Shown here: in pieces, positions 12,311-28,135 of the stretch
How the letters are laid out: each line of letters opens with the position of its first letter
How positions within the stretch are numbered: the first letter of the stretch is position 1
IMG/VR virus record: IMGVR_UViG_3300044617_001170
Location: 1 to 29,261 of that record
Reading direction: 5' to 3' (one strand)
DNA length: 29,261 nucleotides
Source of the DNA: a virus
Program-made: the position numbers and the translations under genes
The notes under the pieces: model-generated
What the model was told of the DNA's origin: nothing
The model's input: only the letters and a program-made list of their open reading frames with translations
Database searches by the model: none

Positions 12311-12458
12311 AAAGTGTTGTGGCGTAAGACTTTACGACGAGTGATGGACGCAAAAGTTGTCATAAACTCTTATGGGGTAACGACTTAGAAAAAACGTAAA
12401 AGCATTTGCATAAATCGAAAGTTTTTCCGCTTGAAACCTAAAGATTGGCCTGTATAAT
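12311..12458 (+). promoter_or_regulatory. Operator module E1 and promoter
   Basis: Site A AAAGTGTT-N7-AAGACTTT starts at 12311 and site B AAACTCTT-N7-AACGACTT at 12364 (53 bp apart). The promoter is TTGAAA at 12431, 16 bp, TATAAT at 12453; the -35 is 120 bp from the module start. CCGATATAAGA follows the -10. It drives the gene at 12491. Confidence 0.85.
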
Positions 12459-12490
12459 ACCGATATAAGAGAAAGAAAGAGAGAAAGAAA

Positions 12491-12712
12491 ATGGAAAAAG
12501 CAACTCATATCAACGATTTTATTGGTAGCCTTCCTAGGATTGTGGAAAAGAAGGTGTGGAAGGTTACGGATAAGGATGGAACGGTTGTTCAGTATGTTGG
12601 CGCTACCGATAACCGTGAGAGCACAGCACAAGCGTACATCAAAGAGAAGTATCCCCAAAGAGATTTGATTCTGACCTTCTCACACTTCAAAGGTTTGATT
12701 ACCCTTCGCTAG
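12491..12712 (+). CDS. Small hypothetical protein
   Basis: This 73-residue protein reads IVEKKVWKVTDKDGTVVQYVGATDNRESTAQAYIKEKYP, a strand-strand-helix layout (small alpha/beta). Its end resembles the 51-residue protein at 16914 (SFSQYDAWIKAKDKYGSDLRI), so the two may be distant paralogs. It is monocistronic under module E1. The leader is purine-rich (GAGAAAGAAAGAGAG). The function is unknown. Confidence 0.8.
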   Translation: MEKATHINDFIGSLPRIVEKKVWKVTDKDGTVVQYVGATDNRESTAQAYIKEKYPQRDLILTFSHFKGLITLR

Positions 12713-12718
12713 AGGGGA

Positions 12719-12746
12719 TTGACAAGCAAAAAAGTTTCTGTAGAAT
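12719..12746 (+). promoter_or_regulatory. Promoter of the 12774 gene (copy 1 of a repeated promoter)
   Basis: TTGACA at 12719, 16 bp, TAGAAT at 12741. The stretch from CTAGAGGGG through the -10 to ATCACCAAG closely matches that at 13347-13400 in front of the 13418 gene, so the two promoters are recent duplicates. It has no operator module. Confidence 0.8.
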
Positions 12747-12773
12747 AACTTCATCATCACCAAGGAAAACAAA

Positions 12774-12962
12774 ATGAACGATCTCAAGAGTCTTTTTCTT
12801 GCTATGGCCGCTGGTAAGTATGCTGGATTCCGAGATACTAAGGGTAAGGGATATATCGGAATCATCAACGGTATCATGCGTGAGGATGGTAGTGGTCGTA
12901 ACTGGATCATTACTGTGACTGAGGGAATCAAAACGAGCAAGGTTTTTATCCACGCAACGTAA
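12774..12962 (+). CDS. Small basic hypothetical protein
   Basis: This 62-residue protein has a helix (NDLKSLFLAMAAGKYAGF) followed by beta strands (GKGYIGIINGIMREDGSGRNWIITVTEG). It has its own promoter, and AAGGA lies 7-8 bases before the ATG. Its stop codon is the first triplet of operator module E2, so the end of the gene overlaps site A. No family is recognised. Confidence 0.78.
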   Translation: MNDLKSLFLAMAAGKYAGFRDTKGKGYIGIINGIMREDGSGRNWIITVTEGIKTSKVFIHAT

Positions 12963-13098
12963 GCCCAATAATCACAAGACTTTACGTCGAGTGGGGGCAT
13001 AGAGGGATGATCTAAACTCTTGTCGCATAACGACTTACGAACCTTGCGATCTTTTAAGGAAACTTTTTGCTTGATCTCTAAGAAATACCCTGTATAAT
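12961..13098 (+). promoter_or_regulatory. Operator module E2 and promoter
   Basis: Site A AAGCCCAA-N7-AAGACTTT starts at 12961 (left half degenerate, overlapping the stop codon) and site B AAACTCTT-N7-AACGACTT at 13014. The promoter is TTGATC at 13071, 16 bp, TATAAT at 13093, 110 bp from the module start, followed by GATATAAGA. Confidence 0.8.
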
Positions 13099-13125
13099 GA
13101 TGATATAAGAGAAAAGGAGAAAAAG

Positions 13126-13341
13126 ATGGATACGACTAAGATCAACAACGCTCTGAAAATGATTTGGGGTAGCGAAACGTACAACGTGGTGCTACTGTAT
13201 ACGGCAGACGGTAAACTGTTTGCAGAATGTGAAGCAACGAATGACCGACGACGAATCACGGAAAGCAACTACGAAGAAATGCTGAACGATATGTTCTATA
13301 ACTTCTGTATGGAAAAGGCCTCTTGGATGGGCGTCTCATGA
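13126..13341 (+). CDS. Small hypothetical protein
   Basis: This 71-residue protein reads KMIWGSETYNVVLLYTADGKLFAECEATNDRRRITESNYEEMLND, beta strands then helix. Translation starts after AAAAGGAGAAAAAG. It is under module E2 and is followed by the duplicated promoter at 13357. The function is unknown. Confidence 0.8.
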   Translation: MDTTKINNALKMIWGSETYNVVLLYTADGKLFAECEATNDRRRITESNYEEMLNDMFYNFCMEKASWMGVS

Positions 13342-13356
13342 CCCCCACTAGAGGGG

Positions 13357-13385
13357 TTGACAAGATAAAAAACTTTCTGTAAAAT
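13357..13385 (+). promoter_or_regulatory. Promoter of the 13418 gene (copy 2 of the repeated promoter)
   Basis: TTGACA at 13357, 17 bp, TAAAAT at 13380. It shares CTAGAGGGG, the A-rich spacer ending TTTCTGTA and the ATCACCAAG leader with the promoter at 12719. A CCCC...GGGG inverted repeat lies just upstream and may end the previous transcript. Confidence 0.75.
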
Positions 13386-13417
13386 ACGTTCATCACCAAG
13401 AGAAGAGGAAAAAGAAA

Positions 13418-13750
13418 ATGGCTACCAAGTTCAAGATTATCGAAGATGCCAAGCGTCAGGTTCGCATGTGCTTTGTTGGTATGGCTACTCGGCATCAGCC
13501 GTCGCTTGCCGATGGATTGTATGGCCCGATTCACAGTGAAAAGATTCACAAGTTCAATCGCAAGGCTCTCCGCAAGGGTAGTAAGGCTAAGGCGGAAAAG
13601 GTTGACTCTCGCTACAATGGGGGAGAGGATACCATGATCGTGGCGGTTGGCAAGCCCGGTTCGGCTGAGCGTAAGGCGGCACTGGCAGACCAGTATGCTG
13701 CGATTATGGCATCGGGCGAGGAACTTTCCCCCTTCGGTTGGAGGGGTTGA
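13418..13750 (+). CDS. Hypothetical protein, basic
   Basis: This 110-residue Lys/Arg-rich protein has a central basic tract (KIHKFNRKALRKGSKAKAEK) and a C-terminal Ala-rich helix (GSAERKAALADQYAAIMAS). Codon use is relatively G/C-rich. AGAGGAA precedes the ATG. The basic nature suggests nucleic acid binding, but no domain is recognised. Module E3 follows directly. Confidence 0.8.
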   Translation: MATKFKIIEDAKRQVRMCFVGMATRHQPSLADGLYGPIHSEKIHKFNRKALRKGSKAKAEKVDSRYNGGEDTMIVAVGKPGSAERKAALADQYAAIMASGEELSPFGWRG

Positions 13751-13753
13751 CCT

Positions 13754-13901
13754 AAAGCCTTACCGCATAAGACTTTGCGACGAGGCCCGCCGCCCGCGTT
13801 TTTCGTAAACTCTTACGCCACAACACCTTGTGAATCTTACGGCATTGTAAGGAAAAATATTCACGACTACCCCTTGCATTGGCCGATAATATCTGTATAA
13901 T
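13754..13901 (+). promoter_or_regulatory. Operator module E3 and leaderless promoter
   Basis: Site A AAAGCCTT-N7-AAGACTTT starts at 13754 and site B AAACTCTT-N7-AACACCTT at 13807. The promoter is TTGCAT at 13874, 16 bp containing GGCCGATAAT, TATAAT at 13896; the -35 is 120 bp from the module start. Only six bases separate the -10 from the first ATG. Confidence 0.85.
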
Positions 13902-13907
13902 CGTGGC

Positions 13908-14114
13908 ATGATGATCACCACCACCAACGAGGACGCCAAAATGCTCCACGACCTTGACGAACCAAACAGCCAACTGAGTTACCTTGCCGAGCAGGGTATC
14001 ATCGAGCCGATGGTCGAGCCGATTGACGATCCTAGTTTGGAAGTGAACTACTGGGATTGGGCAGAAGTGATCGGTATTGTTGACAATCTGGTTCCGGAGG
14101 AGTATGCTGTATGA
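13908..14114 (+). CDS. Small acidic hypothetical protein, possibly leaderless mRNA
   Basis: These 68 acidic residues include QLSYLAEQGIIEPMVEPIDD and NYWDWAEVIGIVDNLVPEE. The first ATG lies 6 bases after the -10, where transcription should start, so the mRNA would be leaderless. An alternative start at 13941 has AGGA 8 bases upstream and would give 57 residues. The next tiny gene overlaps its stop (ATGA). The function is unknown. Confidence 0.7.
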   Translation: MMITTTNEDAKMLHDLDEPNSQLSYLAEQGIIEPMVEPIDDPSLEVNYWDWAEVIGIVDNLVPEEYAV

Positions 14115-14176
14115 GTGCCTTACTGATCGTGGTTTCATACATTGGATTGTGTTTTTGTGTTCTTTGTAAGGATTAG
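14111..14176 (+). CDS. 21-residue single-span membrane microprotein
   Basis: The frame MSALLIVVSYIGLCFCVLCK is almost entirely one hydrophobic segment with a basic end. Its ATG overlaps the previous stop as ATGA, and GGAGG lies 11 bases upstream, so it is translationally coupled. It is one of several such proteins here. Confidence 0.6.
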   Translation: MSALLIVVSYIGLCFCVLCKD

Positions 14177-14178
14177 TT

Positions 14179-14463
14179 ATGAGTCACCCTGACCCTTGTT
14201 TCGATCCCGATAACTCTTATGAGGATGATGATATGAACTACCATGATGACGATGTGAACTACGATGATCACAATGATTTTTGGGGTTTGCCAGAAAATGA
14301 GCTGGATGAAATCCGAGATCAAATGGATGATGATGAGGGTTATGATGACGATTACGATGACCATTACGATGACAGCATGGATGGCGATCACGACTCCGCG
14401 ATGGAATCTGCCGGATGGGGAACAGATGAGGATTACGGCTATTTTGGCGGAGAAGACTACTAG
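14179..14463 (+). CDS. Asp/Tyr-rich very acidic protein
   Basis: This 94-residue protein is dominated by Asp, Glu, Tyr and His (DDDMNYHDDDVNYDDHND, YDDDYDDHYDD). It starts MSHPDPCFDPDNSYEDDD, like the 53-residue protein at 15460 (MSHSDSLCDYEDSDDG), so the two look related. AAGGA lies 7 bases upstream. Highly acidic phage proteins can mimic DNA or chelate cations; here that is speculation. Low-complexity GAT repeats in the DNA are noted. Confidence 0.7.
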   Translation: MSHPDPCFDPDNSYEDDDMNYHDDDVNYDDHNDFWGLPENELDEIRDQMDDDEGYDDDYDDHYDDSMDGDHDSAMESAGWGTDEDYGYFGGEDY

Positions 14464-14467
14464 CCCT

Positions 14468-14602
14468 AAAGCCTTGCCGCATAACACTTTGCGGCGAGGC
14501 GGGCCGCACGATCTTGACGTAAACTCTTTAGGCTCAACGACTTAGAGCAACCGTAGAATCTTTTATTTTCTTGTTGACAGCCTAAAGAACGGGCTGTATA
14601 AT
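14468..14602 (+). promoter_or_regulatory. Operator module E4 and promoter
   Basis: Site A AAAGCCTT-N7-AACACTTT starts at 14468 and site B AAACTCTT-N7-AACGACTT at 14521. Site A can form the hairpin CCTTGCCGC/GCGGCGAGG. The promoter is TTGACA at 14574, 17 bp, TATAAT at 14597, 106 bp from the module start, followed by GTCGATATAAGA. Confidence 0.88.
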
Positions 14603-14637
14603 GTCGATATAAGAACATCACCCCAAAGGAAAAGAAC

Positions 14638-14949
14638 ATGACTCACGCCGAAGCAGTTTCTATGGTTCGTGGCAAGCGGAATAAGGATAGCCGCAAGGTA
14701 GGAAACAACACCTACGCTGAAATCCTGCCGTGTGGATCGGTTGGTATTCTGCTCCACAGTACCTATGTGGTAAAGATTCATTCTGACAATACCTATACCC
14801 TCCAGACTGGGGGTTGGCAAACCAGTACCACCAAGGATAGAATCAACCAGTACAGCCCCGTTCGTGTGTACCAGCACAAGTACGAATGGTTCGTGAAACT
14901 GAATGGTAAGGAATATCCGTTTATGGAAGGAATGGTGGTGGGAGGATGA
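14638..14949 (+). CDS. Conserved phage hypothetical protein
   Basis: This 103-residue protein reads GNNTYAEILPCGSVGILLHSTYVVKIHSDNTYTLQTGGWQTSTTKDRINQY and PVRVYQHKYEWFVKLNGKEYPFMEGM. The combination of a His-strand, TGGWxTxTTKDRIN and a terminal Tyr-Trp-strand is familiar from unnamed proteins of many phages, recalled rather than searched. It is all beta. The following microprotein overlaps its stop. The function is unknown. Confidence 0.82.
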   Translation: MTHAEAVSMVRGKRNKDSRKVGNNTYAEILPCGSVGILLHSTYVVKIHSDNTYTLQTGGWQTSTTKDRINQYSPVRVYQHKYEWFVKLNGKEYPFMEGMVVGG

Positions 14950-15026
14950 TTTTATATCTTGCCGGTTTATATGGTGTTATTCTGCTAAATGCTTTTCTGT
15001 GTTGGATGATTGAAAAAAACAACTAA
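14946..15026 (+). CDS. 26-residue membrane microprotein
   Basis: MILYLAGLYGVILLNAFLCW then a short polar tail: one hydrophobic span. The ATG overlaps the upstream stop (ATGA), with GGTGGTGGGAGG immediately upstream as ribosome binding site. It is the first of four consecutive tiny genes. Confidence 0.65.
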   Translation: MILYLAGLYGVILLNAFLCWMIEKNN

Positions 15027-15041
15027 ACGAAAGGGCTACGG

Positions 15042-15146
15042 ATGGCCGATATATATCTAGACTGGAATAGTTTCGGTGTGGGACTTGTTATTGGCCTTGG
15101 TTGTGCTTGGTTTGTTTGTGATCTTGTTTTTCCATTAAGGAAGTAA
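15042..15146 (+). CDS. 34-residue membrane microprotein
   Basis: A short polar start (MADIYLDWNS) is followed by one span, FGVGLVIGLGCAWFVCDLVF, and a basic end PLRK. The positive C-terminus suggests an N-out or hairpin-free single span. It is preceded by GAAAGG and is 15 bases after the previous stop. Confidence 0.6.
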   Translation: MADIYLDWNSFGVGLVIGLGCAWFVCDLVFPLRK

Positions 15147-15147
15147 G

Positions 15148-15222
15148 ATGACTATTAAGGATAAGATTGTCCTGTCTGTGGCGTTTGTTTGTGGTTGTAT
15201 CGCAACTTTTCTTATGGGGTAA
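15148..15222 (+). CDS. 24-residue membrane microprotein
   Basis: MTIKDKIVLSVAFVCGCIAT continuing to FLMG. A basic start followed by one hydrophobic segment resembles a signal anchor. AAGGAAG lies just before the ATG and one base separates it from the previous stop, so it belongs to the same operon. Confidence 0.6.
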   Translation: MTIKDKIVLSVAFVCGCIATFLMG

Positions 15223-15225
15223 AAA

Positions 15226-15291
15226 ATGTTTTCTGGAATCCCTATGATTGTTGAAGTTTTAAAGAAAATGAACGACTCTAAGGCCAAGTGA
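15226..15291 (+). CDS. 21-residue microprotein
   Basis: MFSGIPMIVEVLKKMNDSKA then Lys and stop: an amphipathic helix rather than a full membrane span. It starts three bases after the previous stop with GGGG upstream. It ends directly at module E5. The least certain of this series. Confidence 0.45.
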   Translation: MFSGIPMIVEVLKKMNDSKAK

Positions 15292-15294
15292 TCT

Positions 15295-15420
15295 AAAGCC
15301 TTGATGCGTAAGAGTTTACGCCAAGGCCCAGCGGCCGCATTTGACGCAAACTATTGAGACACAACAACTTACGATTTTCAAAAAAATATGCTTGACTTCT
15401 AAAGTTTAGGCTGGTAGAAT
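15295..15420 (+). promoter_or_regulatory. Operator module E5 and promoter
   Basis: Site A AAAGCCTT-N7-AAGAGTTT starts at 15295 and site B AAACTATT-N7-AACAACTT at 15348. Site A forms the hairpin CCTTG-A-TGCGTAA/TTTACGC-CAAGG. The promoter is TTGACT at 15392, 17 bp, TAGAAT at 15415, 97 bp from the module start, followed by ACCGATATAAGA. Confidence 0.87.
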
Positions 15421-15459
15421 ACCGATATAAGAAGAAAGAGAAAGAGAAGGAGAAAAGAG

Positions 15460-15621
15460 ATGAGCCACTCTGATTCGCTGTGCGATTACGAAGATTCTGA
15501 CGATGGCTATGATGCTGTGAAAGATAACTACCTGACTAATGGTGGTTATGGGTACAATGATCGTACTCGTCGTGAAGATGCTGAATGGGCTGAGGAATGT
15601 CGCCGTAACAACTGGAAATAA
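15460..15621 (+). CDS. Acidic Asp/Tyr-rich small protein
   Basis: This 53-residue acidic protein starts MSHSDSLCDYEDSDDGYD and ends with a charged DRTRREDAEWAEECRRNNW helix. The start resembles the 14179 protein. GAGAAGGAG lies about 8-10 bases upstream of the ATG. It is under module E5, with the next gene one base downstream. Confidence 0.7.
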   Translation: MSHSDSLCDYEDSDDGYDAVKDNYLTNGGYGYNDRTRREDAEWAEECRRNNWK

Positions 15622-15622
15622 C

Positions 15623-15865
15623 ATGATTACACTTCAGGAAATGAGACTCGCTGCTGCTGATGCTCTTGGAACCATGTCTCATGCTGTTATCGACAATGGT
15701 AACGAGTTTCTTATTGTTACCCTCGACAACTGTAGCATGGGAGAATGTGGTACGTTTTTTGCTGATGATGTTCGCAAGATATCTATCAGGAAGGACAGTA
15801 GCCGTGGTGCTGCTGGTAACCGTATTGAGGATTGGGCTGCTGATATCTTGAATCCGTATGCTTGA
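15623..15865 (+). CDS. Small hypothetical protein
   Basis: This 80-residue protein reads LQEMRLAAADALGTMSHAVIDNGNEFLIVTLDNCSMGECGTFFADDVRKI, a helix followed by beta strands. It starts one base after the stop of the acidic protein, with GGAAA upstream. Its final codons carry the -35 of the next promoter. The function is unknown. Confidence 0.75.
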   Translation: MITLQEMRLAAADALGTMSHAVIDNGNEFLIVTLDNCSMGECGTFFADDVRKISIRKDSSRGAAGNRIEDWAADILNPYA

Positions 15866-15890
15866 CAATGTTTGATTAGTATGATAGAAT
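15862..15890 (+). promoter_or_regulatory. Promoter of the 15913 gene
   Basis: TTGACA at 15862 overlaps the stop codon of the previous gene; 17 bp; TAGAAT at 15885. It has no operator module and no CGATA motif. Confidence 0.82.
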
Positions 15891-15912
15891 ACAACCAAAG
15901 GAGAAAGTGAAA

Positions 15913-16146: not shown

Positions 16147-16151
16147 GCCAT

Positions 16152-16285
16152 AAACCCTTGCTGCATAAGACTTTGCAGCATGGGTGGCCGCCCGCGTTTT
16201 TCTCAAAGTGTTGTGGCGTAAGGACTTACGGCAAAAAGATTTCTTCAAGGTTACCACTTGACAATGCCGATAATAGATGTATACT
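16152..16285 (+). promoter_or_regulatory. Operator module E6 and promoter
   Basis: Site A AAACCCTT-N7-AAGACTTT starts at 16152 and site B AAAGTGTT-N7-AAGGACTT at 16205. The site A hairpin is CCCTTGCTGC/GCAGCATGGG, a compensatory change relative to E4. The promoter is TTGACA at 16258, 16 bp with GCCGATAAT, TATACT at 16280, 106 bp from the module start. Confidence 0.87.
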
Positions 16286-16331
16286 GGGGCTATCTGGTTT
16301 GGTTGGTCTTCACTACACGAAAGGGATTTTT

Positions 16332-16770: not shown

Positions 16771-16895
16771 AAGTTCTTACGCTGTAAGAGTTTAGGGCGA
16801 GGCACGGCACGGACGCTTGATCTAAAGTCTTACGGGGTATACACTTACAGAAAAGCTAAATAGCATATTGACAACGATCCGATAATCTGTATAAT
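16771..16895 (+). promoter_or_regulatory. Operator module E7 and promoter
   Basis: Site A AAGTTCTT-N7-AAGAGTTT starts at 16771, with longer outer symmetry CGCTCTAAG/TTTAGGGCG, and site B AAAGTCTT-N7-ATACACTT at 16824. The promoter is TTGACA at 16868, 16 bp with CCGATAAT, TATAAT at 16890, 97 bp from the module start. Confidence 0.87.
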
Positions 16896-17148: not shown

Positions 17149-17163
17149 TTGGTTTGTATCAGG

Positions 17164-17206
17164 TAATCCTACGGATTTGGGCTGAGTGGGTATAGTCAGC
17201 CAAAAG
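17164..17206 (+). repeat. R2 repeat, copy 1
   Basis: TAATCCTACGGATTTG, then GGCTGA-N10-TCAGCC and AAAAG. It shares TAATCCTACGGATTTG and TAGTCAGC with copies at 19954 and 25608. It lies between tRNA-Glu and the next promoter. AATCC-TAC-GGATT is an inverted repeat. Confidence 0.8.
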
Positions 17207-17784: not shown

Positions 17785-17921
17785 AAGTTCTTGACTACCA
17801 AGAGTTTAGGGCAAACCGCCGCGGCCGGATTCGACGTAAACTCTTATCTCCTATAGACTTGCATCAAAAAGTTTTTTCTACAGAATATGCTCTTGACAGA
17901 CCGATAATAGGAGTGTAGAAT
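17785..17921 (+). promoter_or_regulatory. Operator module E8 and promoter
   Basis: Site A AAGTTCTT-N7-AAGAGTTT starts at 17785 and site B AAACTCTT-N7-ATAGACTT at 17838. The promoter is TTGACA at 17893, 17 bp with ACCGATAAT, TAGAAT at 17916, 108 bp from the module start. Confidence 0.87.
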
Positions 17922-18524: not shown

Positions 18525-18651
18525 AAATGCTTACACTGTAAGAGTTTAGGGCAAACTGCCGCGACCGGATTCGTCGTAAAGTCTTACCCACCAACAACTT
18601 AGGATTGCTAAAGAAAAACCTATTGACAAGCCGATAATACTAGTGTAGAAT
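18525..18651 (+). promoter_or_regulatory. Operator module E9 and promoter
   Basis: Site A AAATGCTT-N7-AAGAGTTT starts at 18525 and site B AAAGTCTT-N7-AACAACTT at 18578. The promoter is TTGACA at 18623, 17 bp with GCCGATAAT, TAGAAT at 18646, 98 bp from the module start. It drives the five-gene operon 18673-19739. Confidence 0.88.
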
Positions 18652-19569: not shown

Positions 19570-19739
19570 ATGAAGATCGTACAAAGGCTATGATTCATAT
19601 TATTAACTTTTTTAACTCTCGTATGAATGCGATGAGTATTAGTAATGTGGATAAGGTAAAAGAGCTAATCTCTCTGCATGAGATTTATACTAGTGAACTG
19701 GTCGATAAGTATGTTGATCTAGTTTATAAGAACTCCTAA
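19566..19739 (+). CDS. Small hypothetical helical protein
   Basis: This 57-residue, almost all-helical protein (RTKAMIHIINFFNSRMNAMS, VDKVKELISLHEIYTSELVD) is the last of the operon from module E9. The ATG overlaps the previous stop (ATGA), and AAGGA lies about 10 bases upstream. Its stop codon overlaps the start of module E10. Confidence 0.72.
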   Translation: MNEDRTKAMIHIINFFNSRMNAMSISNVDKVKELISLHEIYTSELVDKYVDLVYKNS

Positions 19740-19863
19740 GTCCTTTGCTCGCAAGAGTTTAGGACGAAGGGGCGGGCCCACGTTTGACGTAAAGTCTTAT
19801 GGTTCAACCACTTAGGATTTTTTAAAGAAAACTCTTGACAATGCCCGATAATAGAGATATACT
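19738..19863 (+). promoter_or_regulatory. Operator module E10 and promoter
   Basis: Site A AAGTCCTT-N7-AAGAGTTT starts at 19738, inside the stop codon of the previous gene, and site B AAAGTCTT-N7-AACCACTT at 19791. The promoter is TTGACA at 19835, 17 bp with GCCCGATAAT, TATACT at 19858, 97 bp from the module start. It drives a probable small RNA. Confidence 0.87.
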
Positions 19864-19869: not shown

Positions 19870-19953
19870 GCAATGGACGGGGATAGCCACAATGATATCA
19901 AAAGAGGCTATCTGAAATGTTGGTCGAGTATGGCGGAAGCCGACATTGTTTTT
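19870..19953 (+). ncRNA. Putative small RNA of about 84 nt
   Basis: It starts at the expected start point of the E10 promoter. Two hairpins follow: GATAGCC (19882) with GGCTATC (19906), and AATGTTGGT (19916) with GCCGACATT (19939, two G-T pairs), the second directly followed by GTTTTT, so a rho-independent terminator. There is no ribosome binding site with a start codon and no sensible frame. Target or role unknown. Confidence 0.65.
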
Positions 19954-19996
19954 CCTAATCCTACGGATTTGGCTGGGGTGGCTGTAGTCAGCGAGA
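19954..19996 (+). repeat. R2 repeat, copy 2
   Basis: CCTAATCCTACGGATTTG then TAGTCAGCGAGAA. It begins at the base after the terminator T-run of the small RNA. Confidence 0.82.
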
Positions 19997-20067
19997 ATAT
20001 GTGTACTTTATAAGCGGTGGAAGTCTAAAACACCACTGGACGTTAGACCAGTATAGGTACATTTTTT
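19997..20067 (+). other. Possible pseudoknot followed by a T-run
   Basis: GGTGG (20016) can pair with CCACT (20033) and GTCTAA (20023) with TTAGAC (20043), an H-type pseudoknot topology, enclosed by TGTAC (20002)/GTACA (20057) and followed by six T residues. A competing simple hairpin is ACTGG/CCAGT. It may be the 3' end of a read-through transcript or a leader-type terminator. No gene is present here. Confidence 0.4.
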
Positions 20068-21365: not shown

Positions 21366-21503
21366 AAAGCCTTGCCGCATAAGACTTTGCGGCGAGGACG
21401 GCCGCGGCGGTTCAACGTAAACTCTTATCGTATAACGACTTAGGAACAATCGTGAAAAATACTAATGAGAAGGGGTTGACAGTGCCGATAACTAAGGTAT
21501 ACT
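21366..21503 (+). promoter_or_regulatory. Operator module E11 and promoter
   Basis: Site A AAAGCCTT-N7-AAGACTTT starts at 21366 (hairpin CCTTGCCGC/GCGGCGAGG) and site B AAACTCTT-N7-AACGACTT at 21419. The promoter is TTGACA at 21476, 16 bp with GCCGATAAC, TATACT at 21498, 110 bp from the module start. Confidence 0.88.
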
Positions 21504-22134: not shown

Positions 22135-22281
22135 AAATCCTTATCGGATAAGACTTTGCGTCAAATGGGGGCGACCGGGTTCGACGTAAACTCTTGTAGC
22201 ACAAGCACTTGCAAGTTGTTTCGTTTTCTGCAACAACTGATAAAGTTTTCTCTTGACAATGCCGATACTGTAGTATAGAAT
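22135..22281 (+). promoter_or_regulatory. Operator module E12 and promoter
   Basis: Site A AAATCCTT-N7-AAGACTTT starts at 22135 and site B AAACTCTT-N7-AAGCACTT at 22188. The promoter is TTGACA at 22253, 17 bp with GCCGATACT, TAGAAT at 22276, 118 bp from the module start. Confidence 0.87.
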
Positions 22282-23500: not shown

Positions 23501-23619
23501 AAATCCTTGGTGCATAAGACTTTGCATCAAGGCGGGCCGCGGTGATTTGACGCAAAGTGTTGCGGCGTAAGGGTTTAGGATTTTCTAAAGTTGGTCGGGC
23601 CTTTTGACCGATAAATACT
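23501..23619 (+). promoter_or_regulatory. Operator module E13 and uncertain promoter
   Basis: Site A AAATCCTT-N7-AAGACTTT starts at 23501 (hairpin CCTTGGTGC/GCATCAAGG) and site B AAAGTGTT-N7-AAGGGTTT at 23554. The best promoter is TTGGTC at 23591, 17 bp with ACCGATA, AATACT at 23614, 90 bp from the module start. A TTGACA-16-TACAAT pair at 23640-23667 lies inside the following frame and is less convincing. Confidence 0.7.
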
Positions 23620-23657
23620 CTATGGATGAGAAGCGGGTCTTGACAAGGAACGGAACA

Positions 23658-23990
23658 ATGCTACAATGGGTTGGTGTGCTTATTGCTCTGTTAGGGTTGG
23701 CCTATAATGGTGTAAAAGATTATCAAAGTGGGAATATAAAAATTCCAGAGTTGACTCAACAAAAAGAGTTGACAAAGGTAGTTTATCCGGTACAATACTG
23801 TTTAATGGCGTATGATCCTAACGTAAACAAAGTTTTTTATCAACACGAAAATGGTCAATGGTATGATTACCCTCCACAACAACGACGATATGCGTCCTCG
23901 ACGCAACCACAACGTAATCAAAATCAAGAAAGTTATGCCTTGGGAGATGCGTCAGGGGCATCAGGAACACAAGTTTACCGTGTTCGATAA
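23658..23990 (+). CDS. Membrane-anchored hypothetical protein
   Basis: The 110 residues begin with a membrane segment (LQWVGVLIALLGLAYNGV), followed by a polar domain (VVYPVQYCLMAYDPNVNKVFYQHENGQWYDYPPQQRR) and a Gln/Ser/Gly-rich tail. The ATG at 23658 has AAGGA 8 bases upstream and lies downstream of the likely transcription start; earlier in-frame starts (23604, 23622) would not be on that transcript. Its last 100 bases overlap another frame (23890). Confidence 0.65.
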   Translation: MLQWVGVLIALLGLAYNGVKDYQSGNIKIPELTQQKELTKVVYPVQYCLMAYDPNVNKVFYQHENGQWYDYPPQQRRYASSTQPQRNQNQESYALGDASGASGTQVYRVR

Positions 23991-24147: not shown

Positions 24148-24417
24148 TCGGGAATGGTGTAACGGTAGCACAAGTGACTTTAATAAACTGGAGTGCTTAA
24201 AAGGAAACTTTTAATGTATAATCTCTCAAATTCGGTGGACGCTGTAAAATGCCAATACCGAGCCAAGCCGAGTAATCGGAAGGTGTAACGACTTGACGGG
24301 AGACACCTAAAACACAAGTAAAGGTGAAGGTAAAGTCTAGACCACAAACCAATAGGGTAACGAAAGTTATAGTGGTAAGTGGATCACTTTGTCTAGGTTC
24401 AAATCCTAGTTCCCGAA
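24148..24417 (+). tRNA. tRNA-Gln (UUG) split by a group I intron
   Basis: Exon 1 is 24148-24180 and exon 2 is 24380-24417. Joined, they give acceptor TCGGGAA/TTCCCGA, D arm GTGT...GCAC, anticodon stem AGTGA/TCACT with loop CTTTGGA (anticodon TTG), T arm CTAGG-TTCAAAT-CCTAG and discriminator A. The splice site lies between positions 34 and 35 of the anticodon, exactly where the cyanobacterial tRNA-Leu(UAA) intron sits. The HNH gene on the other strand overlaps the last 12 bases. Confidence 0.93.
24181..24379 (+). ncRNA. Group I intron (IC3-like) in tRNA-Gln
   Basis: This 199-nt self-splicing-type intron ends in G. P1: exon ACTT plus U pairs with GGAGT. P2: TTAAAAG-GAAA-CTTTTAA. P4-like TTCGGT/ACCGA, followed by GCCAAGCCG, P6 CCGA-GTAA-TCGG, then the conserved core AACGACTTGACGGGAG (P7 5' strand GACTT) with AAGTC 3' strand in GGTAAAGTCTAGACC, P8 CACCT/AGGTG and a P9 arm AAC-GAAA-GTT. 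The order and wording follow the Anabaena tRNA-Leu intron closely. No reading frame lies inside. Splicing is inferred. Confidence 0.93.
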
Positions 24418-25074
24418 TTTGTTATAATATTTAATCCATTTTCTTACAGCATTATCACTAACATTATACATTTTACCAATTGTAGTCATAGGATAATCTT
24501 TTACTAAATTATCTAGTTCTTCTTTGGTTGGTCTTTCTACTTTTCTAAGCCAAGGTTTTGGGCCTTGTTTACCTTTTTTAATTTTTGGCGGTTTTTTAAA
24601 TCTTTTACCAGCGTAAGTATCTGTTTGGCTATGACAGTTTGGACATAAAAAACATAAATTTTCTAGTCTATTATCGTTGGGAATACCATTTTTATGTTCA
24701 AGCTGTAATGATATTTTTTTATTATTCCAAGTATCTTTAAGACCACATGATTCACACTCGTATGACATTAAGTCATTTCGTATAATTCTTTTTTTTATAC
24801 TATCTCTATTAAGAGATCCATTTTTACAAAAAAAATCTTCGTTAGTTTTTTTGGGAGGAAATTTTTTCCCTTTATTTGATCCTTTACCAAGAGCAATATG
24901 AGACATATCTATATTTTCATATATAACTCGTCTTTTAATAGTATGATGGTTTCCACCTTTATTATTTAGATTAAAATAACGTAGTATATCAGCTATGGTA
25001 TTAGATTTAGCAACCAGTGCTTTGAATTCATCTGTGGAGATTGACCATATAATGCTTCTTTTTTTTCTATTCAT
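24406..25074 (-). CDS. HNH endonuclease, possible homing nuclease
   Basis: This 222-residue protein has an N-terminal DNA-binding half (WSISTDEFKALVAKSNTIAD, IKRRVIYENIDMSHI) and an HNH core YECESCGLKDTW, LQLEHKNGIPNDNRLENLCFLCPNCHSQTDTYAG with two Cys pairs, then a basic tail with a helix-turn-helix-like end (TTIGKMYNVSDNAVRKWIKYY). This matches free-standing phage HNH endonucleases. It is convergent on the intron-bearing tRNA-Gln, overlapping its 3' end by 12 bases. AAGGA is 8 bases before the ATG. It is the only minus-strand gene in this part and is AT-rich, so probably a recent insertion. Confidence 0.9.
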   Translation of the reverse strand: MNRKKRSIIWSISTDEFKALVAKSNTIADILRYFNLNNKGGNHHTIKRRVIYENIDMSHIALGKGSNKGKKFPPKKTNEDFFCKNGSLNRDSIKKRIIRNDLMSYECESCGLKDTWNNKKISLQLEHKNGIPNDNRLENLCFLCPNCHSQTDTYAGKRFKKPPKIKKGKQGPKPWLRKVERPTKEELDNLVKDYPMTTIGKMYNVSDNAVRKWIKYYNKFGN

Positions 25075-25099
25075 GATTAATTCCTTATTGGTACCATAT

Positions 25100-25127
25100 A
25101 TTATACACCAATCTGATGTCTTGACAA
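25100..25127 (-). promoter_or_regulatory. Promoter of the HNH gene
   Basis: On the minus strand TTGTCA (complement of 25122-25127), 16 bp, TATAAT (complement of 25100-25105). Its -35 shares the palindromic CTTGACAAG with the divergent tRNA promoter. Confidence 0.72.
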
Positions 25128-25148
25128 GTTGATTTATTATGCTATAAT
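25121..25148 (+). promoter_or_regulatory. Promoter of the Asn-Ser-Tyr tRNA cluster
   Basis: TTGACA at 25121, 16 bp, TATAAT at 25143, 14 bases before the tRNA-Asn gene. Confidence 0.88.
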
Positions 25149-25162
25149 AGCATAAATACAGA

Positions 25163-25234
25163 TGTCCTGTAGCTCAATGGTAGAGCCCTCCGCTGTTAAC
25201 GGAGTTGTTATAGGTTCGAGTCCTATCGGGACAG
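25163..25234 (+). tRNA. tRNA-Asn (GUU)
   Basis: Acceptor TGTCCTG/CGGGACA, D arm GCTC...GAGC, anticodon stem CTCCG/CGGAG with loop CTGTTAA (GTT), T arm ATAGG-TTCGAGT-CCTAT, discriminator G. Confidence 0.95.
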
Positions 25235-25238
25235 CTAA

Positions 25239-25325
25239 GGAAGAATGGCAGAGTGGCCTAATGCATCTGATTACTAATCAGAAGAGGCGTAAAAACCTCC
25301 GTGGGTTCGAATCCTACTTCTTCCG
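25239..25325 (+). tRNA. tRNA-Ser with anticodon ACU
   Basis: Class II tRNA: acceptor GGAAGAA/TTCTTCC, anticodon stem TCTGA/TCAGA with loop TTACTAA, long variable arm GAGG-N-CCTC, T arm GTGGG-TTCGAAT-CCTAC, discriminator G. The anticodon reads ACT; the usual bacterial tRNA for AGU/AGC has GCT. No other register is possible because the arm is symmetrical. Confidence 0.92.
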
Positions 25326-25329
25326 TTTA

Positions 25330-25411
25330 GGTGGATTACCCAAGCGGCCAACGGGGGCAGACTGTAAATCTGCTGGCAATGCCTTCGCTGGTTCGAATCC
25401 AGCATCCACCA
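25330..25411 (+). tRNA. tRNA-Tyr (GUA)
   Basis: Class II tRNA: acceptor GGTGGAT/ATCCACC, anticodon stem GCAGA/TCTGC with loop CTGTAAA (GTA), variable arm around GGCAATGCC, T arm GCTGG-TTCGAAT-CCAGC, discriminator A. Module E14 starts two bases after its end. Confidence 0.95.
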
Positions 25412-25412
25412 T

Positions 25413-25538
25413 AAAGCCTTGTCTCGTAAGACTTTACGACTAGGCTGAGCATGGAGACTTGACGTAAACTCTTTATCTATAAGTACTTAGACCAAGTTAA
25501 ATAATCCTATTGACAAGTGCCGATAACTAGAGTACAAT
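25413..25538 (+). promoter_or_regulatory. Operator module E14 and promoter
   Basis: Site A AAAGCCTT-N7-AAGACTTT starts at 25413 and site B AAACTCTT-N7-AAGTACTT at 25466. The promoter is TTGACA at 25510, 17 bp with GCCGATAAC, TACAAT at 25533, 97 bp from the module start. Confidence 0.88.
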
Positions 25539-25544
25539 ACCAAA

Positions 25545-25607
25545 ACGGAGGCTGGCGTTCTGAGCAGTTTTTGGTGTTCTGCCCAAACAAAAACACCCAC
25601 TGGATTA
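25545..25607 (+). ncRNA. Untranslated leader or small RNA between tandem promoters
   Basis: The start is set by the E14 promoter; there is no reading frame. Pairs such as GTTTTTG (25567) with CAAAAAC (25587), or GGTGTT with AACACC, are possible. It occupies the same place, promoter then RNA then R2 repeat then promoter, as the small RNA at 19870. No terminator T-run is seen. Confidence 0.35.
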
Positions 25608-25650
25608 CCTAATCCTACGGATTTGCGATTGTGGAAGATAGTCAGCGAGA
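25608..25650 (+). repeat. R2 repeat, copy 3
   Basis: CCTAATCCTACGGATTTG then GATAGTCAGCGAGAAA. The middle differs from copies 1 and 2, and the second stem is not kept, so the conserved parts are the first inverted repeat and TAGTCAGCGAGA. Confidence 0.82.
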
Positions 25651-25669
25651 AAAACTATAGTTTGACCTC

Positions 25670-25698
25670 TTGACAAGTCGATAACTCTAGAGTAGAAT
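25670..25698 (+). promoter_or_regulatory. Promoter of the 25717 gene
   Basis: TTGACA at 25670, 17 bp with GTCGATAAC, TAGAAT at 25693. It follows R2 copy 3. Confidence 0.85.
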
Positions 25699-25716
25699 CC
25701 CACCAAAGGAGAGAGT

Positions 25717-25902
25717 ATGAAAACCATTCGTTTCTATAATATGTTTAGTGAAACTGCTATTGGTTCTGAAAAGATTATGACAGAGTGCCGGTTGAGTATG
25801 CCAGAAGATATTGATTTGAATGATATGTTCGATGTGCTATCTCAAAAAACTGGGTATCCAATAGAGTCCTTCTCTTACGAAAATGTAGGGGTTGACAACT
25901 GA
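25717..25902 (+). CDS. Small hypothetical protein
   Basis: This 61-residue protein starts MKTIRFYNMFSETAIGSEKI, has a strand-helix layout (ECRLSMPEDIDLNDMFDVLSQKTG) and ends FSYENVGVD. AAAGGAG lies about 7 bases before the ATG. The next promoter's -35 lies within its last codons. The function is unknown. Confidence 0.75.
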   Translation: MKTIRFYNMFSETAIGSEKIMTECRLSMPEDIDLNDMFDVLSQKTGYPIESFSYENVGVDN

Positions 25903-25919
25903 AAAAATGCCGTTATAAT
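25892..25919 (+). promoter_or_regulatory. Promoter of tRNA-Lys
   Basis: TTGACA at 25892, 16 bp, TATAAT at 25914, 11 bases before the tRNA. It overlaps the end of the preceding gene. Confidence 0.88.
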
Positions 25920-25930
25920 ACGGCTAAGTT

Positions 25931-26003
25931 GGGGCTTTAGCTCAGTTGGTAGAGCAAGGGTCTTTTAAACCTTTGGTCGTGGGTTCGAGTCCCACAGGCC
26001 CCA
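25931..26003 (+). tRNA. tRNA-Lys (UUU)
   Basis: Acceptor GGGGCTT/AGGCCCC, D arm GCTC...GAGC, anticodon stem AGGGT/ACCTT with loop CTTTTAA (TTT), T arm GTGGG-TTCGAGT-CCCAC, discriminator A. The next promoter starts two bases later. Confidence 0.95.
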
Positions 26004-26004
26004 C

Positions 26005-26033
26005 TTGACAATCGTTGATCGTTGGTGTAGAAT
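26005..26033 (+). promoter_or_regulatory. Promoter of the 26055 gene
   Basis: TTGACA at 26005, 17 bp with GTTGATCG, TAGAAT at 26028. Confidence 0.85.
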
Positions 26034-26054
26034 AGTGGTTGAAGGAGAGGTATT

Positions 26055-26213
26055 ATGCTTTATTATGATGATCGTGATTATTATGATTCTAGTAACATCG
26101 ACGAGTTGTACGATGACGATCTCATTTTTGAGGATGATAACGATATTGAAGATATGAAAAACTCTTGGGAGTTTGATTATCACTCTATTGCTAACGAACT
26201 GGATGATGAATAA
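26055..26213 (+). CDS. Very acidic Asp/Tyr/Glu-rich small protein
   Basis: These 52 residues read YYDDRDYYDSSNIDELYDDD and continue with more Asp and Glu, ending in NELDDE. AAGGAGAGG precedes the ATG. Its composition groups it with the acidic proteins at 14179 and 15460. No fold is predictable; a nucleic-acid-mimic or cation-binding role is speculation. Confidence 0.72.
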   Translation: MLYYDDRDYYDSSNIDELYDDDLIFEDDNDIEDMKNSWEFDYHSIANELDDE

Positions 26214-26223
26214 ACTCTCTCGT

Positions 26224-26308
26224 TACGGATGCGACTTGGTGGGACAAGTATCTATTATAAGGATTATCCTTTCTCTCTTCTAGTACGTTCGAATCGTACC
26301 GTCCGTAT
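26224..26308 (+). tRNA. tRNA-like element, degenerate or atypical
   Basis: A convincing T arm (GTACG-TTCGAAT-CGTAC) is followed by an acceptor strand CGTCCGT pairing with ACGGATG at 26225, and a D-like arm ACTT-GGTGGGAC-AAGT. The anticodon arm is weak (ATCT/GGAT around ATTATAA, which would read UAU) and position 8 is C, not T. The variable region is long. It may be a decayed tRNA or a tRNA mimic. It ends four bases before the phosphoribosyltransferase gene. Confidence 0.4.
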
Positions 26309-26311
26309 TTT

Positions 26312-26803
26312 ATGAATATTATGAATAGCCCAATAGAAGATGTTCGACAAACTGGTTCTGGGATTATTCAAGGTGCAAGCCACACTTGCCATGTGTTGAA
26401 TCATAAGGTAAGAAATAAGATTATTATTAAGGCTGTGTGTGATCTGAGGAAGATTGCCAAAGATTTTGATAGTATCGCTTGTTGCGGAGTAAGCGGTCTG
26501 ATGGTTGTGCCACAGATTGCCGAGATTCTTAATAAAAACATTTTGGTGGTACGCAAAGATGAAAGAAGATATAGCGATTTTACAACTGAGGGGGTTGCTC
26601 CTTTTAGGTACGTGGTTGTTGATGATCTTATTTGCTCTGGAAAAACGATAAAGCATATTCAGGATACCGTTAAAGAAGAATATCCAAGAGCAAGAGCATT
26701 GGGCGTATATTGCTATATGCCAGAAGAATGTGGATATCCTGCTACTGACGAAGGATCTAAACTTTGTGAGCGTGATTTGGGGCTGCCTCTCCTAAATCTA
26801 TAG
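26312..26803 (+). CDS. Phosphoribosyltransferase-like protein
   Basis: This 163-residue protein has the type I phosphoribosyltransferase layout: CCGVSGLMVVPQIAEILNKNILVVRKDE (an early PRPP-pyrophosphate loop region and Lys) and the PRPP-binding signature VVVDDLICSGKT at about residues 100-111. It would transfer phosphoribose to a base or act as a regulator. No clear ribosome binding site precedes the ATG; a second ATG follows at 26321. It lies directly after the tRNA-like element and its end overlaps module E15. The substrate cannot be predicted. Confidence 0.85.
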   Translation: MNIMNSPIEDVRQTGSGIIQGASHTCHVLNHKVRNKIIIKAVCDLRKIAKDFDSIACCGVSGLMVVPQIAEILNKNILVVRKDERRYSDFTTEGVAPFRYVVVDDLICSGKTIKHIQDTVKEEYPRARALGVYCYMPEECGYPATDEGSKLCERDLGLPLLNL

Positions 26804-26929
26804 CCCGTAAGACTTTACAACAAGTCTGCGGTGCCCGCCTCGACGCAAACTCTTGGCAGCAAACGACTTACGACGAATAGTTTTTTTCGCAAGTTTGCCT
26901 GTTGACACGCCGATAACATACTGTATAAT
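26794..26929 (+). promoter_or_regulatory. Operator module E15 and promoter
   Basis: Site A AAATCTAT-N7-AAGACTTT starts at 26794, inside the last codons of the previous gene, and site B AAACTCTT-N7-AACGACTT at 26847. The promoter is TTGACA at 26902, 16 bp with GCCGATAAC, TATAAT at 26924, 108 bp from the module start. Confidence 0.87.
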
Positions 26930-26971
26930 CAGTGCATCAGAGAACGAGAAACCTACACGAAGGAGTTAGAT

Positions 26972-27919
26972 ATGCCTGCTGCTGTTGAACAGATGATGTT
27001 TGTTGGTGCTACCCCTTGGCACGGTCTTGGCAATAAGGTCGATGCTGATATTAGCGTCGAAGATGCTATTGTCGCTGCCGGTCTGGATTGGGAAGTTGGA
27101 CTTAAGGATCTGCAAACCGTTGACGGTGTTCCGGTTTCGCATCGTGCTACATACCGTAAGACTGACGGTAGTATCCTTGGCGTTGTTGGGCCGCGTTATA
27201 CGCCGCTCCAGAATAAGGATTCTTTTGATTGGTTCCAGCCATTTATTGACGCTGGTGAGTGCGGCATCCATACCGCTGGTTCGCTCCACAGTGGTCAAAA
27301 GGTTTGGGTTCTCGCACAACTCAACCGTGATAGCAGCGAGATTGTTCGTGGTGATGATGTTAGTAAGTTTATTCTGCTTAGTAACTCGCACGATGGCACA
27401 ACTGCGATTCGTGTTGGCTATACGCCTATTCGTGTCGTATGCGTGAATACTCTGGCTATGGCCCATAATAATAAGAGTAGCCAACTTATTAGGATTCGCC
27501 ATACTCGTTCCAGCAAGAATAATCTGGAACAGGTTCGTGATATCATGGATAATATCAATGCACAGTTTGAGGCTACTGCGGAGCAGTTCCGATTTCTTGC
27601 GTCGAAGAACTTTAATCAGGGCGATATTCGTCGCTATGTAAAGACGATGCTTGGTATCGAAGGTACTGTTGATGATGATATTAAGACTCGCACCCGTAAT
27701 ATCATGGACGAGATTCTGGCCCTCGTTGAAGGCCCGAAGCAATCGGCCACGAATGTGCGTGGTACTTGGTGGGCTGCTTATAATGGTTACAATGAATATC
27801 TGAACTATAATAAGGGTCGAACTGAGGATAATCGCCTCGACTCTCTCTGGTTCGGTGCTAATGCTAACGACAATATCAAGGCCTTGGAAAAGGCGATGGA
27901 GTTTGCGAACGCCGTTTGA
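26972..27919 (+). CDS. DUF932 phage/plasmid-like protein
   Basis: This 315-residue protein is recognisable as DUF932 (TIGR03299-type) from its start (PWHGLGNKVD), then RTHRATYRKTDGSILGVVGPRYTPLQN-like wording, GECGIHTAGSLHSGQKVWVLAQL, LLSNSHDGTTAIRVGYTPIRVVCVNTL and a helical C-terminal half. The family is common on phages and plasmids; its biochemical role is not established. AAGGAG precedes the ATG. Codon use is strongly G/C-ending compared with neighbours, suggesting high expression. It has its own promoter (E15) and terminator. Confidence 0.92.
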   Translation: MPAAVEQMMFVGATPWHGLGNKVDADISVEDAIVAAGLDWEVGLKDLQTVDGVPVSHRATYRKTDGSILGVVGPRYTPLQNKDSFDWFQPFIDAGECGIHTAGSLHSGQKVWVLAQLNRDSSEIVRGDDVSKFILLSNSHDGTTAIRVGYTPIRVVCVNTLAMAHNNKSSQLIRIRHTRSSKNNLEQVRDIMDNINAQFEATAEQFRFLASKNFNQGDIRRYVKTMLGIEGTVDDDIKTRTRNIMDEILALVEGPKQSATNVRGTWWAAYNGYNEYLNYNKGRTEDNRLDSLWFGANANDNIKALEKAMEFANAV

Positions 27920-27944
27920 TCTTCGTGGCAGGGTGATCTGAGGG

Positions 27945-27983
27945 GAACCGCCGTGGGAGCAATCCTGCGGCGGTTCTTCTTTT
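27945..27983 (+). terminator. Rho-independent terminator after the DUF932 gene
   Basis: GAACCGCCG/CGGCGGTTC stem (9 bp), a 14-base loop and TTCTTTT tail. Confidence 0.9.
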
Positions 27984-28004
27984 GATATTTAGACCACTCG
28001 ACGT

Positions 28005-28135
28005 AAACCCTTATCAGACAAGACTTTGCGAAAAACGGGGCCGCGAAATTTTGTCATAAACTGTTGTGGCTACTAGACTTAGCGAAAGTATCTCACAACC
28101 ACCCTATAGACGGCGGGCCAGATTGACGATACAAT
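28005..28135 (+). promoter_or_regulatory. Operator module E16 and weak promoter
   Basis: Site A AAACCCTT-N7-AAGACTTT starts at 28005 and site B AAACTGTT-N7-CTAGACTT at 28058. The best promoter is TAGACG at 28107, 17 bp, TACAAT at 28130, 102 bp from the module start. The promoter assignment is uncertain. Confidence 0.75.

Follow-up and report, generated by a model that had tools for sequence, protein, structure and literature searches.

Paired operator-like modules with a fixed 53-bp step, placed upstream of predicted promoters in one island of related phage genomes

A stretch of 29,261 nt from an uncultured virus (IMG/VR record IMGVR_UViG_3300044617_001170; hereafter the window) carries 16 dispersed copies of a module made of two sites, A and B. 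What is this element, and what might it do to the genes that follow it?

Structure of the modules in the window

The initial annotation gave the A to B offset as exactly 53 bp in every module, and all 16 pairs were found where it had placed them (Table 1). The pairs score 41-59 bits, whereas the best score in 50 mononucleotide shuffles of the window was 15. Because these 16 pairs also served to train the matrices, independent testing comes from the relatives described below. The proposed consensus, AAANYCTT-N7-AANRACTT, is approximate only. Several sites deviate from it, for example the A sites AAGCCCAA, AAGTTCTT and AAATCTAT and the right half of the B site of the module at 23501 (AAGGGTTT). 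A symmetric site near CGTAAGNCCTTA-N5-TAAGGNCTTACG describes the unit better. The corresponding symmetric matrix, applied with its own thresholds, recovers 15 of the 16 pairs in the window; it misses the module at 28005, whose B site scores too low.

Other parts of that first description needed correction. The modules were said to all face the same way, but the sites are nearly palindromic and are matched on either strand, and the direction belongs to the following promoter. The stretch separating A from B, said to be mostly not conserved, does contain a G/C core at A+34 to A+41, where at least seven of the eight positions are G or C in 13 of the 16 modules. The modules were said to sit between transcription units, but those at 12961, 19738 and 26794 overlap the last bases of the preceding ORF. 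Additionally, the window has two extra single sites, at 28142 and 28314.

Table 1. Modules, single sites and a candidate gene in the window. The strand of a module is that of its following promoter; promoters are predicted.
Feature	Coordinates	Strand	Sites, core or description	Predicted promoter	Remarks
Module 1	12311..12386	+	A 12311-12333, B 12364-12386; middle only 5/8 G/C	12431-12458	
Module 2	12961..13036	+	middle only 5/8 G/C	13071-13098	
Module 3	13754..13829	+	core CGCCGCCC	13874-13901	
Module 4	14468..14543	+	core GGCCGCAC	14574-14602	
Module 5	15295..15370	+	core CAGCGGCC	15392-15420	
Module 6	16152..16227	+	core GGCCGCCC	16258-16285	
Module 7	16771..16846	+	core CGGCACGG	16868-16895	
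Module 8	17785..17860	+	core CCGCGGCC	17893-17921	
Module 9	18525..18600	+	core CCGCGACC	18623-18651	
Module 10	19738..19813	+	core GCGGGCCC	19835-19863	
Module 11	21366..21441	+	core GGCCGCGG	21476-21503	
Module 12	22135..22210	+	core GGGCGACC	22253-22281	directly 3' of tRNA-Asp gene
Module 13	23501..23576	+	core GGCCGCGG	23640-23667	-10 at A+161
Module 14	25413..25488	+	middle only 5/8 G/C	25510-25538	directly 3' of tRNA-Tyr gene
Module 15	26794..26869	+	core GCGGTGCC	26902-26929	upstream of DUF932 gene
Module 16	28005..28080	+	core GGCCGCGA	28107-28135	weak -35 (TAGACG); -10 at A+125
Single site	28142..28164	+			just 3' of the -10 of the module 16 promoter, at the predicted transcription start
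Single site	28314..28336	+			right half overlaps -35 (TTGCAA, 28335-28340); -10 TATAAT ends 28363
78-aa protein, candidate DNA-binding	11357..11593	+	predicted three-helix HTH, RGRPKK tail		island edge

Conservation of the spacing and location in one island

Loss of the 53-bp offset in homologous phages had been named as grounds for abandoning the paired-site idea. The offset is kept: when related uncultured phages were scanned with a matrix that does not encode spacing, 336 distinct multi-site groups were obtained, of which 323 contain sites exactly 53 bp apart. This spacing in divergent relatives, together with the helical phasing to promoters described below, supports the view of the modules as paired operator-like sites, which we infer to be bound, probably by dimers.

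The idea of a genome-wide regulon is not supported. In four long records (G003, G004, G009 and G010; 223-231 kb), each with 15-17 pairs, all pairs are inside a single island of about 19 kb that extends from near terL to slightly beyond a DUF932 gene, and none is outside it. Inside islands, moreover, many predicted promoters lack a module (182 have one, 289 do not). The scan covered eight long records (three of them, with the second kind of module, class 2, are partial), and each has a single island; the module copies are scattered across about 13-20 kb. An upstream ORF of at least 55 aa ends near the module in 183 of 258 cases (median distance 10 nt, commonest 3-4 nt). The flank TTGACGTAA itself provides a TGA or TAA. 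A blastn search of phage records found no similar module; 11 records gave short matches, eight of which are listed at E values of 0.9-3.

One locus per genome with many palindromes might also serve replication, packaging or partition, its intergenic position being incidental. We consider this very unlikely, as the copies are dispersed and each precedes a promoter, to which most are phased.

Phase relative to predicted promoters

For the sigma70-type promoter that follows a module, the preferred places of the -10 box are A+120, +130 and +141, about one helical turn apart. Offsets in the window are 119-121 (five modules), 125 (one), 128-132 (six), 141-142 (three) and 161 (one), and 157 family-distance combinations from 17 island sequences in 16 records peak at 120, 130 and 141. 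Some promoter families shift among these three values between phages. In this first set R was 0.52 for the 107 distances within 150 bp, against 0.13 for a jittered null, with a poorly resolved period (R 0.49 at 10.5, best at 11.5). The result was replicated with 197 new promoter families. Over all 238 of their distances R was 0.57 at 10.5 bp, compared with 0.18 in the null, and the 200 distances within 150 bp gave 0.62 at 10.7 bp, compared with 0.20; the jitter p value was at its floor of 1/2001. Class 2 modules are phased also (R 0.77 for 53 distances within 110 bp and 0.57 for all 71). Restriction to one face of the helix, as for activators of class I type, is a strong tendency and exceptions exist.

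Taken together, the phasing, the G/C core, the second kind of pair and the repeated switching between kinds (see below) favour a protein-bound upstream regulatory module. We put at roughly 0.55 the probability that paired dimers touch RNA polymerase from upstream and, probably, activate. The module would be an upstream regulatory element of double-stranded DNA in which two 31-bp palindromic sites, five helical turns apart, flank a G/C-only hub. Each site would probably be bound by a dimer, or a pair of dimers, of one sequence-specific protein, and the complex could touch RNA polymerase because it would sit on a fixed helix face relative to the promoter, at one-turn steps. The centre of the last half-box is about 60, 70 or 81 bp before the start of transcription, all starts being predicted, and class I activators such as CRP have sites at -61.5, -71.5 and -81.5. 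The helically phased upstream positions are alike; the two sites at 53 bp, the G/C hub and the tens of modules per phage are unlike CRP. The targets would be the small genes, probably early ones, and the tRNAs of a single island, and the likeliest net effect on their promoters would be activation or timed boosting. At the island's far end, where single sites overlap promoters, repression is probable and would give feedback.

Several observations count against activation from upstream. Several promoter families are out of phase (one has distances of 134, 142, 188, 214, 220 and 234; another has 11 members over 133-214), phasing is looser past about 150 bp, and 24 of 257 modules have no above-threshold promoter at 95-240 bp. 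The predicted promoters with a module score about as well in their cores as those without (means 9.39 versus 9.24), and such good cores are not typical of activator-dependent promoters. In favour of the upstream reading, the DNA preceding module promoters is A/T-rich (0.725 versus 0.566) and CGATA occurs in the spacer of 138 of the 182, compared with 74 of the 289 that lack a module.

Repression or immunity is a strong rival to activation, although on balance we think it rather unlikely. A phage repressor on the modules would silence the entire island, through looping or by trapping the polymerase, and the two kinds of module would mark heteroimmune groups. The strong promoter cores agree with this, as do the single sites, which overlap the -35 box (39 of 147 distinct singles have their best -10 at +43 to +45) or follow a -10 (50 of 147, with a peak at 12-13 bp), both positions being typical of repression; 58 of the 147 fit neither arrangement. 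Site class is all-or-none per locus, as expected of immunity types. The paired modules, however, are 60-140 bp upstream and off the core promoter, no repressor gene was found, and the 17 long records, several of them partial, show no sign of a temperate phage, with no integrase above the family cut-off and one match below it (in G001).

We also considered that the modules act at the RNA level, ending the upstream transcript with a terminator or a processing hairpin. Modules are located after stop codons and tRNA genes, the A region folds better than shuffles and the stem of sum-35 pairs covaries modestly in the window clade. However, an intrinsic terminator, with a hairpin and T tract at each module, was not seen: one of 16 terminator-like matches between 12001 and 28500 is inside a module (16181-16194), and their total is near chance (16 versus 11.5). 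Furthermore, B folds little, changes in the class 2 palindrome are often uncompensated as judged by eye, and the phasing would be left unexplained. Covariation between box 2 and box 3 (18-57, 19-56 and 20-55) is probably a clade effect, two site subtypes being mixed, as it is absent from the top stems within the window clade. We rate an RNA element as highly improbable. Half-site pairs inside one site (3-19, 4-18 and 5-17) are absent from the 40 strongest complementary column pairs, which counts for the protein-bound module, a reading that leaves unexplained the hairpin potential of the A half (z -1.9 on the plus strand and -1.5 on the minus strand) and some covariation in its flanks.

Two kinds of module and comparison with known systems

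Class 1 sites are of the TAAGNCCTTA type, 31-bp palindromes at 53 bp, whereas the class 2 pair is TGCCAWWWTGGCA twice, 13-bp palindromes 29 bp apart. Among 81 loci, 59 have class 1 only, 12 have class 2 only, none has both and 10 have neither. Class 2 pairs occupy orthologous places, with the same genes and promoters, indicating an in-situ swap, and site class has switched repeatedly on the DUF932 tree. A core of 7-8 bp, nearly all G/C but degenerate, is within half a base pair of the dyad. As a tentative proposal, which we hold to be possible rather than probable, the module may be an enhancer with two operators and, between them, an invariant 7-8-bp G/C hub, the operator type serving as an interchangeable 'key'. 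Whole arrays of 10-20 modules would be converted together: 13-bp sites at 29 bp would take the place of 31-bp sites at 53 bp, and the genes, promoters, hub and helical phase would be retained.

An array of site, spacer and site, after stop codons and in the same direction, might instead represent attC-like recombination sites of a cassette array. Modules do begin soon after stop codons, and junctions of mosaic modules are in or near modules (294 one-sided pairs). Mapping showed no single crossover point; the breakpoints are spread out, the majority from -10 to +95, although the pairs are not independent. No tyrosine recombinase was above cut-off in the 17 records, whereas 14 of 14 control genomes were positive; the stop codon can come from the module's own flank, and neither promoter phasing nor the in-situ class swap would be explained. 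The breakpoint mapping and the integrase search led us to reject the cassette idea, the least probable of those weighed here.

A regulator was sought by comparing ORF presence and absence between the four class 1 records named above and four class 2 records (G005 and the shorter G018, G019 and G020, 122-159 kb), and no convincing candidate emerged. There were six class-1-specific and 12 class-2-specific ORFs, most of them small; several overlap modules or have the wrong strand for the island, and none is regulator-like by inspection. The conserved genes 3' of single sites encode small proteins, none recognised as DNA-binding by inspection. The 78-aa HTH protein is present with both classes and so does not follow site class; Foldseek gave no match for it at E<=0.001. 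Pfam and PHROGs assigned no family to three of 10 island or edge proteins and, in a second set, to four of six.

Repeated intergenic elements are known from other phages. The SAS/ESAS elements of cluster K mycobacteriophages are mostly in one orientation and conserved with the following gene, about half with an inverted-repeat pair, but the ESAS spacer is described as variable and tied to translation starts (PMC3203893), whereas the modules have a constant 53-bp offset and are phased to the -10. In the window the 13-bp SAS, GGGATAGGAGCCC, has one match with three mismatches, compared with 3.1 expected. L5-type stoperators, as described in PMC9283540, are likewise dispersed sites (more than twenty) for one phage regulator whose specificity diverges between relatives. 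Those sites are asymmetric, 13 bp long and distributed genome-wide, and a monomer binds them, whereas the modules are palindromes (31-bp or 13-bp) in fixed pairs in one island, and an L5-type stoperator was rejected on both site and spread. SPbeta, likewise a large phage, has the SPBRE, a 15-bp regulatory motif repeated in intergenic regions, to which a single master regulator, MrpR, binds, but its description in the text consulted (PMC10516654) includes no fixed pairing. An MrpR-type tyrosine recombinase was not found in the 17 records by Pfam PF00589 above cut-off, a search that a diverged MrpR could escape.

A fixed double operator with a G/C hub, helix-phased and swapped as a full set between close relatives, was not found in the open-access literature searched. 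The exchange of the site sequence throughout the block in relatives suggests a dedicated, replaceable control system unlike the described systems compared here. Dispersed phage operators are already known; the modules add an example, visible in sequence and open to testing, of viral gene control with helical phasing, and they raise the question of how some fifteen scattered modules change specificity together. If the proposed exchange of keys is true, it would be a regulatory specificity system of large-genome phages that evolves by concerted replacement, resembling heteroimmunity yet acting from upstream.

Paired sites and their island

All sixteen modules of the window described in the initial annotation, each with its sites A and B 53 bp apart, were recovered at their exact coordinates. 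With matrices trained on the window's own sites they score 41-59 bits, against 15 bits for the top value among 50 shuffles. Relatives were collected by searches with terL (at least 80 loci) and DUF932 (80 further loci) and scanned with a symmetric site matrix without a spacing term, seeded with the window sites and then trained on the terL loci together with the window (background, 3 matches in 1.18 Mb of shuffled sequence). After removal of near-identical copies and grouping of sites at gaps of 110 bp or less, the 161 sequences (160 loci and the window) gave 451 groups: 115 single sites and 336 groups with at least two sites. The exact 53 bp step is present in 323 of these 336 groups, showing that the spacing is kept in relatives, and 9 of the other 13 have a step of 51, 52 or 54 bp. 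Extra third sites, the majority beside the DUF932 gene, have no set distance from the pair: most are 71-105 bp from B, and in four groups the third site lies 73-86 bp ahead of A. A distance of 82-85 bp (10 groups) comes close to a whole number of turns and one of 99-100 bp (11 groups) does not; therefore nothing was drawn from these sites.

Whole-record scans of four long relatives found 17 (G004), 15 (G003), 17 (G009) and 17 (G010) pairs, each set confined to a single block of about 19 kb. The modules therefore belong to an island, a block of small genes running from near terL to just past the DUF932 gene, and the proposal of a genome-wide regulon does not hold. With a model search the module turned up in 17/17 long records among the matches listed, G005 having only two weak matches. 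In G002 (L180, L181) the island runs across both ends of the record (228,972 bases), which makes a circular or circularly permuted genome probable. The pattern also occurs several times in L265, L266, L268 and L271, contigs assigned to MAGs labelled Rhodobacteraceae, Planctomycetaceae and Alphaproteobacteria; these are probably phage fragments, so their host need not be the one that the label suggests.

Features of the 29,261-base IMG/VR virus record
Feature	Position	Strand	Remarks
Virion genes		minus	
terL (our own reading)	5935-7959	minus	terminase matches at 21-32% identity
Neighbour of the 78-aa protein	9689-10513		weak match to D5-like regulator family (E 7.5e-4)
Neighbour of the 78-aa protein	10474-11136		sigma region 2 match below Pfam's cut-off
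78-aa protein	11357-11593		island edge
Small ORFs (many) and tRNA genes (eight)	~12.3 to 28.4 kb	plus	
CCTTAC-N4-TGTAAGG-like palindrome	13828-13860		directly 3' of some modules; also in L027, L049, L071
CCTAATCCTACGGATTTGGC...GTAGTCAGC element, four copies	17155-17205, 19947-19997, 25601-25651, 28232-28282		may be a structured RNA; copies 2-4 63-75% alike to copy 1; similar elements in relatives L118, L153
Group I intron	24171-24355		Rfam score 50.4, gathering threshold 50; a tRNA gene appears, by eye, to be interrupted by it
Protein after the intron	24406-25074	minus	weak HTH and HNH matches
Lone site	28142		3' of a -10
Lone site	28314		-35 overlaps site
65-aa ORF	28753-28950		HicA-like by eye; PHROGs match not found

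Promoter phasing and the G/C hub

Within the window, the start of site A precedes the start of the -10 box by 119-121 bp (five modules), 125 bp (one), 128-132 bp (six), 141-142 bp (three) or 161 bp (one). For 233/257 modules in 17 island sequences (16 records) a promoter lies within 95-240 bp, and the 157 distances left after grouping by promoter sequence peak at 120, 130 and 141 bp. Some promoter families shift peak (11 members: 130 bp eight times, 141 twice, 120 once; 8 members: 141 bp seven times, 120 once) and others are out of step (six members: 134, 142, 188, 214, 220 and 234 bp; 11 members: 133-214 bp). A second set (L085-L164, L264-L273 and L274-L353), which shares records with the first, took in only families whose promoters differ from the first set's and comprised 197 families and 238 distances. 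The peaks are the same; the phasing statistic R reaches 0.62 at 10.7 bp when the 200 distances within 150 bp are taken (jittered null 0.20) and 0.57 at 10.5 bp over the full 238 (null 0.18), phasing being less clear at farther promoters. We know of no explanation that does better than double-stranded DNA on which proteins make contact or form loops.

Within islands a module lies 95-200 bp ahead of 182 predicted promoters, and 289 others lack one; the same test on the reverse strand gave 4 matches. The motif CGATA in the -35/-10 spacer, possibly another binding site, is strongly tied to modules (138/182 promoters with a module versus 74/289 without). Near modules in L027, L028 and L060 there are TTGGCAC-N4-TTTGCT-like repeats on both strands, which resemble the sigma54 -24/-12 consensus.

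Across 148 distinct modules the G/C content of columns 34-40 is 89-98% (column 33, 83%; column 41, 81%). The letters vary between modules, and the stretch has its centre at 37.0, half a base away from the module dyad at 37.5. In the window at least 7/8 bases at A+34 to A+41 are G/C in 13/16 modules, and three modules have 5. In an outgroup of seven more distant loci (L148-L154) most class 1 sites (those of the 53 bp pair type) are single, and 27/41 sites (orthologues counted repeatedly) carry a G/C core of at least 7/8 at the exact module offset on one side, compared with 0.7% of 8-mers in these sequences. In L148, five of the six sites with a right-hand core face a CCCC-N6-GGGG palindrome on the far side of the core, an arrangement that the other loci of this group do not show. 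In L085-L145 such a core accompanies only 7/67 distinct single sites. This suggests, from a small sample, that the hub is part of the upstream module and that the operators flanking it can be exchanged.

A second class of module

Pairs were tallied in 81 loci (80 DUF932 loci and the window, near-copies included). Twelve have islands with two TGCCAWWWTGGCA palindromes at offset 29 (class 2) in place of the 53 bp pair (class 1), 59 have class 1 only, 10 have neither and none of the 81 has both. The offset is 29 in 95/99 close TGCCAWWWTGGCA pairs in the 21 loci looked at. Six class 2 records have 10-18 occurrences of the class 2 pattern on each strand, and the four class 1 records scanned have none. 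The class 2 module too has a G/C core (columns 17-23, 92-100% G/C; centre 20.0, dyad 20.5). It is likewise phased to the promoter: of 71 family-distance values, 10 fall at 77-81 bp and 37 at 87-91 bp, R being 0.77 when limited to the 53 values within 110 bp and 0.57 for all 71.

When a class 1 locus is compared with a class 2 locus, large syntenic stretches flank the modules on both sides, and at two aligned places the preceding and following genes are the same, the promoter is similar and the module is exchanged. On the DUF932 tree class 2 requires five changes, three of them forced by well-supported branches. The arrays have therefore switched kind more than once, the count being a guide because DUF932 could itself have recombined.

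Candidate binders and the sign of regulation

The 78-aa protein has a predicted three-helix HTH (mean pLDDT 84) and an RGRPKK tail. It was found by tblastn in 60/168 sequences (160 loci, many too short or elsewhere in the genome, and 8 joined records), including 8/8 joined records of both classes. Comparison of class 1 and class 2 records found no convincing gene that follows class.

At its DUF932 end the island also has lone class 1 sites, which are kept in the class 2 genomes G005, G018 and G019 and not in G020. In 39/147 distinct singles a -35 overlaps the site, with the best -10 at +43 to +45; 50/147 lie 3' of a -10 (peak 12-13 bp) and 58/147 are in neither arrangement. Sites that overlap a -35 or just follow a -10 usually repress. 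Repression of promoters by the modules is therefore a serious rival to activation: lone sites overlap promoters, and the promoter cores are strong other than at the last window promoter, which has a weak -35 (TAGACG). This weak -35, the A/T-rich DNA ahead of the -35 at module promoters and the class-I-like positions of the modules make activation our first choice.

Tested features that define stoperators, SAS/ESAS and attC set the modules apart from all three. The literature covered was that of open-access PubMed Central. Judged from sequence, the modules would work as upstream operator pairs placed in helical phase.
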